Source: Novosphingobium sp. 28-62-57
GTDB taxonomy: Bacteria > Pseudomonadota > Alphaproteobacteria > Sphingomonadales > Sphingomonadaceae
Direction of reading: 5' to 3'
DNA: 64,000 bases
Assembly: GCA_002256985.1 (NCBI GenBank)
Contig: NCGO01000001.1
Location: 1-64,000, forward strand
Shown here: piece after piece, positions 29,771-57,767 of the stretch
Layout of the letters: the number at the start of each line of letters is the position of its first letter
Position numbering within the stretch: the first letter of the stretch is position 1
Made by a program: the position numbers and the translations under genes
Notes under the pieces: generated by a model
Told to the model about the DNA's origin: nothing
Databases searched by the model: none
Seen by the model: only the letters and a program-made list of their open reading frames with translations

Positions 29771-29944
29771 GTTTCGCGCAGAGGGCGCAGAGGGCGCAGA
29801 GACGCAGAGAAAGAGCGTCTGGCCGATAGGCCAATTCTCCTCAACATCATTGCGAAAGCCGCTTCGCTGGGTTTCGTGAGACGGCTTCGCCGCCGCTCCA
29901 ACCTCTTTGCGATCTCTGCTTCCTCTGCGCCCTCTGCGCGAAAC
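29771..29944. repeat. 174-bp terminal-inverted-repeat element A (MITE-like)
   Basis: Left end GTTTCGCGCAGAGGGCGCAG and right end (read inward on the other strand) GTTTCGCGCAGAGGGCGCAG are identical for 20 bases and similar for about 40, built of 8-9-base CGCAGAG units. The centre contains GAGACGGCTTCGCCGCCGC, shared with element B at 48052-48224. No gene is inside. It lies in the 482-base gap 29597-30078 between two minus-strand genes; the rest of the gap (29597-29770) presumably holds the lipoprotein promoter. Confidence 0.8.
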
Positions 29945-47947: not shown

Positions 47948-48051
47948 CACAGCAGATGTAGCGCGGCTTTGTTTCGCTGGGAAGAAGGGAGCCAAAGAAG
48001 GGCGGCATTACTCTGCGCTTTGCCAGCGTTACATCATCAAGAAAAAAATGA

Positions 48052-48224
48052 GTTTCGCGCAAAGACCGCAGAGGAAGCAGAGACGCAGAGATTAAGCGCT
48101 GGTCCGAAGGGCCATCCACTCCAATAACCTCGTGAAAGGGACCGCCGCCGGATCCTTGAGACGGCTTCGCCGCCGCCGCAAACTCTTTGCGATCTCTGCT
48201 TTCTTCATGGTCTCTGCGCGAAAC
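48052..48224. repeat. 173-bp terminal-inverted-repeat element B (MITE-like)
   Basis: Ends are GTTTCGCGCAAAGACCGCAG (left) and, read inward from the right, GTTTCGCGCAGAGACC; the arms extend about 40 bases with CGCAGAG-type units. The centre shares GAGACGGCTTCGCCGCCGC and AACTCTTTGCGATCTCTGCT-like sequence with element A (29771-29944). A further match CAAGAAAA flanks both ends just outside. No gene inside. It fills most of the 411-base gap 47948-48358, next to the amn promoter. Confidence 0.8.
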
Positions 48225-48269
48225 CTATTTTCTTGCAGTCTCTTACGGATAGAGCGTGGCGTTCGCAGA

Positions 48270-55581: not shown

Positions 55582-56517
55582 ATGCGAGCGTTCGTTTTTC
55601 CGGGGCAGGGCAGCCAGAAGATCGGCATGGGCCTTGAACTTGCACAGGCCAGCGCCGCCGCGCGCGAAGTGTTCGAGGAGGTGGACGAGGCGCTTGGCCA
55701 GAAGCTCTTCCAGATCATGAAGGAAGGCCCGGAAGACGTTCTGACGCTTACCGAAAATGCCCAGCCCGCGATCATGGCCAATGCCATCGCCGTGCTGCGT
55801 GTGCTTGAGCGTGAGGGCGGGATTACGCTTGCCGAAAAGGCCGATTTCGTGGCCGGGCACAGCCTTGGCGAATATACCGCCCTGTGTGCAGCAGGCGCGT
55901 TCAGCCTTGCCGACACGGCCCGACTGCTCAAACTGCGCGGGCAATCGATGCAGGCAGCGGTGCCGGTGGGCGAAGGCGCGATGTGCGTGCTGCTGGGAGC
56001 TGACATAGAAAAAGCCACGGCGCTGGCTGAGGCAGCGGCCGAGGGTGAAGTTTGCACGGTTGCCAACGATAACGATCCCACACAGGTGGTGCTATCGGGC
56101 CACCGCGCCGCAATCGAACGCGCTGTGGCCATGGTCAAGGATCACGGCATCAAGCGCGGTATGCTGCTGCCGGTGTCCGCGCCCTTCCACTGCTCGCTGA
56201 TGCAGCCTGCCGCCGACGCAATGGCTGAGGCGTTCGAGAAAACCCCGCCCGGCCCTTTGCGCATCGCGCTTTTCGCCAATGTCACCGCGTCGGTGGTGAC
56301 CGACCCTGCTGAAGTCCACCGCCTCCTCGTCGAACAGGTCACCGGCCGCGTCCGCTGGCGCGAAACTGCCATCGCGATGAAAGCCGCAGGCGTAGAGCGC
56401 GTGATCGAACTGGGCGGCAAAGTCCTGAGCCCCATGATCACCCGCTCCGCCACGGACGTTTCGGTCACGAGCGTGGTCGGCATGACCGACATCGAGGCTT
56501 TGCTGAAGGGTTTTTGA
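55582..56517 (+). CDS. fabD: Malonyl-CoA--ACP transacylase
   Basis: Loads malonyl onto ACP for fatty acid elongation. The 311-residue product has FVFPGQGSQKIGMG, the nucleophile Ser94 in AGHSLGEYTAL, and the His in PVSAPFHCSLM. AGGAGA precedes ATG 55582; a TTG three bases earlier is less likely. fabG follows, but a GxxExxY element has been inserted between them. Confidence 0.96.
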   Translation: MRAFVFPGQGSQKIGMGLELAQASAAAREVFEEVDEALGQKLFQIMKEGPEDVLTLTENAQPAIMANAIAVLRVLEREGGITLAEKADFVAGHSLGEYTALCAAGAFSLADTARLLKLRGQSMQAAVPVGEGAMCVLLGADIEKATALAEAAAEGEVCTVANDNDPTQVVLSGHRAAIERAVAMVKDHGIKRGMLLPVSAPFHCSLMQPAADAMAEAFEKTPPGPLRIALFANVTASVVTDPAEVHRLLVEQVTGRVRWRETAIAMKAAGVERVIELGGKVLSPMITRSATDVSVTSVVGMTDIEALLKGF

Positions 56518-56526
56518 AGGATTTTG

Positions 56527-56984
56527 ATTTCGCGCGGAGACGCGGAGGCGCGGAGGAACAGTGTCCGAGATTGATCGCATTACCGCCGAGATTCTGGACT
56601 GCTCCATTCGCATTCATAGGGAGCTTGGGCCTGGATTGCTTGAATCGGTCTATGAAACCGTTCTTGCGGCCAGTTTACATCGTCTTGGGCTGAAGATTGA
56701 TCGGCAATTGCCAATCGACATCGAGTTTGACGGCATGAAGTTTCCTGCTGCGTTTAGAGCAGACTTGCTCGTCGAGAATGCGGTAATTGTCGAAATTAAG
56801 TCCGTAGAACAGCTAAGCCGATCCCATGCGAAACAATTGCTTACCTATCTTCGTCTCATGAGATTGCCGGTGGGGCTATTGCTCAACTTCAGCGGAGCAA
56901 CCATGAAAGAAGGTGTTAGGAGGATCGTCAACGCACACGTTGAAGACCGTAATTTCTCCGCGTCTCCGCGTCTCCGCGCGAAAT
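56527..56984 (+). mobile_element. 458-bp inverted-repeat unit carrying a GxxExxY gene
   Basis: Left end starts ATTTCGCGCGGAGACGCGGA; the right end, read inward on the other strand, starts with the same 20 bases. The arms agree over about 31 bases with two differences and are built of 8-base GCGGAGAC-type units. The single gene inside uses the left arm as Shine-Dalgarno (GGAGG) and ends just past the right arm. It splits the fabD-fabG pair. The arm design matches elements A and B. No transposase motif or clear target duplication is visible, so mobility is inferred. Confidence 0.65.
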
Positions 56985-57001
56985 CTGAATATGGAGCTTA
57001 G
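56561..57001 (+). CDS. GxxExxY protein, PD-(D/E)XK nuclease-like
   Basis: The 146-residue product has the family motif GPGLLESVYETVL (Gly25, Glu28, Tyr31), and the nuclease-like core FRADLLVENAVIVEIKSVEQ with Asp68, Glu78 and Lys80. The segment QLLTYLRLMRLPVGLLLNFS is also conserved in the family. GTG 56561 follows GGAGGAACA from the inverted repeat. The C-terminal residues DRNFSASPRLRAKSE are encoded by the right repeat. Base composition is lower in GC than fabD and fabG, suggesting transfer. The family's function is unknown. The stop lies one base before the fabG ATG. Confidence 0.88.
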   Translation: MSEIDRITAEILDCSIRIHRELGPGLLESVYETVLAASLHRLGLKIDRQLPIDIEFDGMKFPAAFRADLLVENAVIVEIKSVEQLSRSHAKQLLTYLRLMRLPVGLLLNFSGATMKEGVRRIVNAHVEDRNFSASPRLRAKSEYGA

Positions 57002-57002
57002 T

Positions 57003-57767
57003 ATGGAAAACCGCCTTTTCGACCTTACCGGCATGACTGCCCTCGTCACTGGCGCTGCTGGTGGTATTGGTTCGGCCATCTGCCATGCGTTGGCGCAGCA
57101 AGGCGCGCGGTTGGCGCTTTCGGGGACCAATCCTTCGAAGTTGCGCAGCTTTCGTGAGGAGTTGAACGACACTTACGGGCACGATCACGTTGAAATCACG
57201 TGCGATCTTTCGAACACCGAACAGGTCGAACACCTCGTTCCCGCCGCGATGGATACGCTGGGCAAGCTCGACATCCTCGTCAATAACGCCGGGATCACGC
57301 GCGATAACCTTGCCATGCGGATGAAGGATGATGAGTGGGACGCGGTGATCCGCGTGAACCTTGAGGCCGCCTTCCGCCTGATGCGCGCGGCCACCAAGCC
57401 GATGATGAAGGCGCGCTTTGGCCGCATCGTTTCGATCACCAGCGTGGTGGGGGCCACCGGCAATCCGGGGCAGATCAACTATGCCGCCGCCAAGGCTGGG
57501 CTCGTCGGCATGTCAAAGTCGCTGGGCCAGGAACTGGCCACCCGCGGCGTGACCGTCAATTGCGTCGCCCCCGGCTTCATCCGCACCGCGATGACCGATG
57601 TCCTGCCCGATGGCCAGAAGGATGCGCTCAACGCACGCATTCCGATGGGACGCATGGGCGAAGGGGCCGATATCGGCGCGGCGGTGGCATTCCTTGCCTC
57701 GAAGGAAGCCGGATACGTCACCGGGCAGACGCTGCATGTCAACGGCGGCATGGCGATGCTATCCTGA
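57003..57767 (+). CDS. fabG: 3-oxoacyl-ACP reductase FabG
   Basis: NADPH-dependent SDR enzyme of fatty acid elongation. The 254-residue product has LVTGAAGGIGSAI near residue 14, NNAG, and the catalytic Ser147 and Tyr160-x-x-x-Lys164 in SVVGATGNPGQINYAAAKAG. ATG 57003 is one base after the GxxExxY stop. Frames extending upstream into the element are not native. Confidence 0.96.
   Translation: MENRLFDLTGMTALVTGAAGGIGSAICHALAQQGARLALSGTNPSKLRSFREELNDTYGHDHVEITCDLSNTEQVEHLVPAAMDTLGKLDILVNNAGITRDNLAMRMKDDEWDAVIRVNLEAAFRLMRAATKPMMKARFGRIVSITSVVGATGNPGQINYAAAKAGLVGMSKSLGQELATRGVTVNCVAPGFIRTAMTDVLPDGQKDALNARIPMGRMGEGADIGAAVAFLASKEAGYVTGQTLHVNGGMAMLS

Follow-up and report, generated by a model that had tools for sequence, protein, structure and literature searches.

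A GxxExxY nuclease gene within matched inverted repeats at the fabD-fabG junction of Novosphingobium suggests a little-noticed nuclease-and-repeat system

The unit between fabD and fabG

In a 64,000-nt stretch of the genome of Novosphingobium sp. 28-62-57 (contig NCGO01000001.1, positions 1 to 64,000, here called the window), the genes fabD and fabG are separated by a short unit, in which a single gene of the GxxExxY family lies inside two inverted arms (Table 1). An original prediction, made from the letters of the window, had described inverted repeats of 8-bp units around this one gene, and the presence of the gene inside matched inverted tandem-unit arms is now confirmed for the window locus. 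A repeat search gave arms of 38 nt each, 89% complementary and with 394 nt between them, and when the same geometry was slid over the window, the arm-pair score of 56 at the real place compared with a maximum of 29 at 1032 displaced places. The enclosed open reading frame starts with GTG and codes for 146 amino acids, and profile searches matched the protein to TIGR04256 (GxxExxY; E 2.2e-38, 131 bits with a cut-off of 35) and to PF13366 (PDDEXK_3; E 7.9e-39, 133 bits with a cut-off of 22).

Also the proposed participation of the repeats in the gene can be seen in the sequence. The Shine-Dalgarno-like GGAGGAACA lies within the left arm, immediately 5' of the GTG start, and the residues ...FSASPRLRAK near the C-terminus are encoded by the right arm, but a stop codon within the right arm is a minority trait (28 of 111 units, all pre-selected for arms). 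The unit is indeed lower in GC (0.51) than fabD (0.64) and fabG (0.62), with all three genes on the + strand, and it does split the fabD-fabG pair, with the qualification that this interruption is common to many Sphingomonadales.

Table 1. Position of the GxxExxY unit, its neighbours and related hairpins in the window
Feature	Coordinates	Strand	Remarks	Source
Left inverted arm	56521..56558	+	tandem 8-nt units; holds Shine-Dalgarno-like GGAGGAA of the gene	repeat search, sequence
GxxExxY gene, RecB/Cas4-type PD-(D/E)XK nuclease (predicted)	56561..57001	+	E28, D68, E78, K80, Q92 invariant	
Right inverted arm	56953..56990	-	within 3' end of coding sequence; encodes low-confidence C-terminal tail	
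fabD, upstream neighbour	55582..56517	+		
fabG, downstream neighbour	57003..57767	+		
Gene-less hairpin unit, same repeat family	29771..29944	.	32-nt arms, 94% complementary	
Gene-less hairpin unit, same repeat family, decayed	48042..48234	.	42-nt arms, 79% complementary	

The predicted nuclease

In an alignment of 58 sequences, the residues E28, D68, E78, K80 and Q92 are invariant and Y96 is conserved in at least 90%, and we take them to form the E..D..ExK..QxxxY pattern of RecB/Cas4-type PD-(D/E)XK nucleases. The structure model of the window protein is of low confidence only for about residues 131-146, which are encoded from the right arm onward, and its top structural match is 4ic1 SSO0001, presumably a Cas4. 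From residue pattern and model, the window protein is predicted to be a RecB/Cas4-type PD-(D/E)XK nuclease. Cas4 enzymes possess conserved cysteines that bind an iron-sulphur cluster; this trait is missing here, with one cysteine in the window protein and no alignment column with cysteine in half of the 58 rows. No transposase of the DDE, HuH, serine or tyrosine type was recognized either, the single gene of the unit matching only GxxExxY/PDDEXK_3. The ratio of nonsynonymous to synonymous substitution rates (dN/dS) was 0.05-0.18 in orthologue pairs, where unsaturated (8 of 11 pairs), and as far as such comparisons indicate, nuclease residues and gene are under purifying constraint. A virus of the alga Chrysochromulina parva also has a GxxExxY protein listed for its genome, in a table of one report (PMC12085832).

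Inverted arms around GxxExxY genes in other genomes

For a comparison of many loci, as the original prediction had proposed, GxxExxY genes with their flanks were collected in two sets. A scan of one genome per species (84,980 species) yielded at least 582 confirmed relatives among at least 589 stretches; the best 80 were used, and this set therefore leans to close relatives. From a phylum sample of 299 genomes, 58 of them with the gene, 30 loci were taken, which are among the best-scoring and mostly of one family. Of the 110 pooled loci 108 were testable, as the flanks of L161 and L202 were too short. The inverted match between the two 300-nt flanks exceeded the 99th percentile of 440 displaced controls in 88 of the 108 loci (69/79 in the species scan, 19/29 in the phylum sample), which means that most of the sampled GxxExxY loci do have such matches. 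A score of at least 40 was reached by 59/108 loci, compared with 1/440 displaced controls and 56 of about 2000 arm-swapped draws. Within the genus, each of the 13 full-length loci whose flanks were placed correctly has a match scoring at least 30; L049 was not counted, its gene lying at a contig end, and L054 and L055 are gene fragments.

According to record titles, positive loci occur in Pseudomonadota, Verrucomicrobia, Chloroflexi, Desulfuromonadales, KSB1, Hydrogenedentota, SAR324, Planctomycetes, Acidobacteria, Lentisphaerae, Gemmatimonadetes, Bacteroidetes and Cyanobacteria, with WOR-3 being marginal (score 29); both loci from Neomarinimicrobiota were negative for an inverted flank match. 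The arms consist of units of 8-9 nt in tandem; most have the form CRCNRAG, and CAGAT and AACG types were found as well. Among 111 units that were pre-selected at an arm score of at least 29 for the comparison of arms and proteins, the dominant arm cores were AGAG (29), GAAG (22), AAAG (18) and GGAG (10). Unusually long inverted matches surround the gene in L181 and L190, and L181 has several arrays in series.

Arm sequence and protein lineage

At the fabD-fabG site the arm type differs between species (CGCAGAG, CGCGAAG, CGCGGAG and others) and both arms of a unit agree: in 16 of 23 units at this site, and in 4 of 6 at a second site that is described below, no other arm matched better than the own partner. 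Across the 111 units, arm distance and protein distance are correlated with a Mantel r of 0.39, and of 0.27 after exclusion of pairs with homologous flanks (0/2000 permutations); removal of the local composition left 0.34 and 0.24 (0/1000 permutations). Arm types can differ between paralogues of one genome and tend to be retained by copies that occupy one site across genomes, the arm distance being 0.65 for within-genome pairs (n=8), 0.52 for same-site pairs (n=379) and 0.77 for other pairs. For the paralogue comparison, loci from family f35 were fetched, and 15 of these 20 had an arm score above 28. The correlation suggests that arm sequence goes with protein lineage also where the sites are unrelated.

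A stricter version, in which each protein would have strictly cognate arms, was dropped. When the 59 genomes of the genus were examined for two arm-type patterns, A and B, type B occurred in 10 of these, 6 of them gene-bearing, and type A in 9, again 6 of them gene-bearing (including G037, which carries a gene fragment). Both types thus concentrate in gene-bearing genomes but exceptions exist, and it is because of these exceptions that only a correlation with lineage is claimed.

History of the fabD-fabG placement

Empty sites in relatives, for which the original prediction had asked, do exist. Among 30 fabD-fabG junctions, the window genome included, 7 carry a GxxExxY gene and 3 carry remnants of arms or gene, and 16 of the remaining 20 are shorter than 90 bp. 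Remnants were sought by eye in plus-strand junctions only, gaps on the minus strand being taken from coordinates. One of them (L078 in G035) is an internally deleted relic in which the two arms and the final codons survive, and L066 (G027) and L087 (G026) retain arm pieces only. The gene is patchy in the genus, with 11 of 59 genomes carrying it or a fragment.

The 24 fabD-fabG copies in a protein tree of 62 sequences, which come from Novosphingobium, Sphingomonas, Sphingopyxis and others, cluster with only 3 label changes compared with a shuffled mean of 19. A recent insertion into fabD-fabG was considered and is ruled out by this placement, common to 24 of the 62 loci with few label changes. 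Six copies of the same clade lie elsewhere, all of them at one second site in six different genomes, between what we take to be a saccharopine-dehydrogenase-like gene and nspC. Of 30 genomes fetched for this site, 2 have the gene there, one has the first neighbour in a non-adjacent position, and the rest are variable, with anything between a junction of 5 bp and a stretch of other DNA. It appears that the unit has been located between fabD and fabG since an ancestor of many Sphingomonadales, and the simplest reading is a long vertical inheritance with about one move and many losses. In family f35 the gene copies likewise occupy shared sites with homologous flanks.

Two side observations concern these sites. 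The saccharopine-dehydrogenase-like/nspC junction (L254-L283) is very variable in the genus, from 5 bp to more than 1 kb of other DNA, and is perhaps an insertion hot spot. A record titled Arthrobacter (L120) shows the fabD-GxxExxY-fabG arrangement of Sphingomonadales and groups with Sphingomonas; it is probably misnamed.

Evidence on movement

The original prediction saw in repeats and gene a minimal mobile unit. Its first part stands, in that repeats and gene belong together, as indicated by the inverted matches at most loci, the relation of arm type to protein lineage and the empty sites; free travel is not supported, as there is one shared lineage in Sphingomonadales with a single relocation, and shared sites in f35. 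Target duplications, which had been suggested as a check, were sought around 50 gene-less units of four genomes as well as the second gene-bearing unit of the own genome. They were not detectable at these 51 units, with an observed mean of 1.29 compared with 1.38 for permuted flanks, although decay may hide them in units that are old. None was found in the sister genome G018 or at the second site either; in G018, unit 2 is absent without a clean junction, the place of unit 3 is an indel that includes the unit, and unit 1 could not be cleanly aligned. A search with the window protein detected the gene in 6 of 72,556 plasmid records (E up to 1e-10) and in no phage record (50,697 searched, E up to 1e-8), which speaks against a freely mobile unit, and the best plasmid match, on an 880-kb replicon, once more has the order fabD-GxxExxY-fabG. 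Paralogues that share an f35 genome are no more than 37-58% alike, so that no recent multiplication of the gene unit is seen in the 7 genomes compared.

These results bear directly on a conventional mini-transposon, in which the nuclease would act as transposase and move its whole unit, the short gene-less units being its miniature inverted-repeat transposable elements (MITEs). The terminal inverted arms, the short gene-less relatives, the one relocation from fabD-fabG to the second site and the deleted relic L078 would all fit such an element. Since it is opposed by the undetected target duplication, by the same sites across species, by the near absence from the plasmid and phage records searched and by the dissimilar f35 paralogues, we consider it the least probable of the alternatives discussed here.

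Gene-less hairpins and their co-occurrence with the gene

The own genome (4.1 Mb) contains two GxxExxY genes, both between such inverted repeats, and in addition 67 forward and 65 reverse matches of the pattern CGCRGAGRCGCRGAG; a reversed-pattern control gave 22 and 26, and it also matches inside triple arrays. The pattern matches that were listed resolve into short units that lack a GxxExxY gene, usually about 100-170 bp long and several of them nested; lengths range from 67 to 488 bp in the set of 51 units. The own genome has dozens of such gene-less hairpins, and 34 non-redundant units taken from it form loose families that are about 69-81% identical over most of their length, with one partial pair at 94%, and nearly all of them fold, as single strands, into near-perfect hairpins. 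Among 14 flank matches listed for these 34 units, most are the arms of nested units. As to the nesting itself, CGCGGAG-type units lie inside CGCAGAG-type units in the own genome (L007, L010, L020, L108), and the reverse, CGCAGAG-type inside CGCGGAG-type, is seen in G036 (L113-L116); it looks as if units prefer landing inside other units.

In the 59 genomes of the genus, the median number of pattern matches is 20 in the 11 gene-bearing ones, which include one weak partial match and one further fragment, compared with 0 in the 48 others (p 2e-5). Family f35, picked after most gene-bearing genomes of the phylum sample proved to lie there, gave medians of 23 (45 gene-bearing) and 1 (29 others; p 1e-7). 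In genus and f35, presence of the gene goes with many repeats, with exceptions.

This relation is relevant for a possible role of the nuclease in the service of the host, in which the arms would be an operator or an mRNA structure and the enzyme would process hairpins or cruciforms, or guard the genome, and would not spread repeats. It could explain why the gene is co-directional with its neighbours at both Sphingomonadales sites and has its Shine-Dalgarno sequence inside the left arm, and it agrees with the purifying selection and with the RecB/Cas4-like fold of the model. Against it stand the gene-bearing genomes of genus and f35, which hold more and not fewer dispersed repeats, and the patchiness of the gene in the genus, where 11 of 59 genomes have it or a fragment; we regard a host-serving role as quite unlikely.

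A proposed nuclease-and-repeat system

Together, the observations point less to a gene that jumped recently than to a nuclease-and-repeat system that has attracted little notice, and we would give about even chances to a nuclease with cognate repeats that works like a REPtron. The protein would recognize the arm units, probably after extrusion of the inverted arms into a hairpin or cruciform, where it would nick or cut. Replication or repair by the host could then copy or convert the hairpin, which would keep both arms of a unit alike, and would occasionally seed a new short unit elsewhere, in trans. The gene-bearing unit itself would move rarely and be inherited vertically between host genes, and the gene would often be lost, sometimes leaving arm scars. 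That the protein recognizes the arm repeats is plausible, because arms flank most loci, because arm type follows protein lineage and because empty fabD-fabG sites exist.

In a wider form, which we put forward tentatively and with somewhat less than even confidence, GxxExxY nucleases would be the processing enzymes of a so far unrecognized, phylum-spanning class of dispersing hairpins. They would recognize 8-9-nt arms in a lineage-specific manner and spread and homogenize gene-less hairpins in trans without target duplication, and the nuclease itself would persist between host genes as a unit that seldom moves.

A number of observations weigh against the proposed REPtron-like system. Its steps are read from sequence comparison, as we infer recognition from the coupling of arms and protein lineage, cutting from the conserved active site and spreading from the co-occurrence of repeats and gene; of these three steps, spreading is the weakest. 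The dispersed units are old, as judged from their limited identity, so that they need not be active at present. No match above the threshold was seen in 20 of the 108 loci, and a number of the positive ones have their matching stretches at a distance of 100-230 nt from the gene. Some shared ancestry or taxonomic relatedness is left in the Mantel and co-occurrence tests, and G013 has 10 matches of the arm type of G036 and G025 but carries a gene with other arms. At least 8 pattern matches occur in 7 of the 48 gene-less genomes of the genus and in 7 of the 29 of f35. An extreme case is G007, a genome rated 100% complete with 141 repeat matches and no GxxExxY match at E 0.001, in which either the gene was lost or another agent spread the repeats. 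In the phylum sample, 8 matches are reached by only 3 of the 12 gene-bearing genomes that are neither the own one nor in f35 (G102 with 16, G375 with 34, G364 with 41), they are also reached by some gene-less genomes (e.g. G119 with 53, G238 with 30, G177 with 27 and G201 with 20), and in many genomes of that sample the reversed-pattern control exceeds the pattern. The pattern used there fits a 9-nt spacing only and misses 8-nt arms, which may account for part of the weak co-occurrence outside f35.

The repeats in gene-less genomes and the several gene-bearing genomes outside f35 without an excess could also be explained by hitch-hiking, i.e. the arms would belong to a common family of intergenic hairpins or terminators that is spread by other machinery, and the genes would persist inside them by chance, with a nuclease that is inactive on the arms. 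The hairpins are in fact very stable and have purine-rich left and pyrimidine-rich right flanks, as in bidirectional terminators. A chance association does however not readily account for the rarity of high scores in displaced controls, for arm types that track the protein lineage even without homologous flanks, or for arms that covary within a unit at one orthologous site. We think that hitch-hiking is unlikely, though less so than the other two alternatives.

In the open-access literature, no description of a GxxExxY gene with such inverted repeats was found with the terms used. The proposed system offers a concrete hypothesis on the substrate of a widespread nuclease family without known function, and a candidate enzyme for a common class of intergenic hairpins. 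As the arm sequence varies with the protein lineage, specificity is directly testable with matched and mismatched pairs of nuclease and arms.

Comparison with known systems

Cas4/RecB-type PD-(D/E)XK nucleases share fold and residue pattern with the GxxExxY protein, but the latter is short, stands alone, lacks conserved iron-sulphur cysteines and is packaged in inverted repeats. Like MITEs and their parent insertion sequences, gene-less and gene-bearing units have terminal inverted arms in common and deleted relics occur, but the sole gene inside is not a known transposase and target duplication is undetected. As regards homing endonuclease elements, which cleave the empty allele and are copied into it, empty fabD-fabG sites exist in relatives.

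The closest parallel in arrangement is the REPtron, in which an enzyme called TnpA-REP or RAYT is associated with REP and BIME elements. RAYTs behave vertically, and the gene itself moves little. One account of REPtrons describes a HuH enzyme with a catalytic tyrosine, and inverted palindromes with a GTAG foot that surround the enzyme gene and have many extragenic copies (PMC8266576). The GxxExxY gene is likewise surrounded by inverted repeats that have many extragenic copies, and both systems have one resident enzyme gene that moves little, with no visible target duplication. Unlike in REPtrons, the GxxExxY enzyme is of the predicted PD-(D/E)XK type and its arms are tandem 8-9-nt units, the short units being mostly about 100-170 bp long; unit ends in the listed flanks and arms are, by eye, of a GGTTTCRCGC type and not GTAG. 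The GxxExxY unit is not a REPtron, because its enzyme is not HuH and the GTAG foot is missing, and if the proposal is true, a REPtron-like arrangement arose with an unrelated nuclease.
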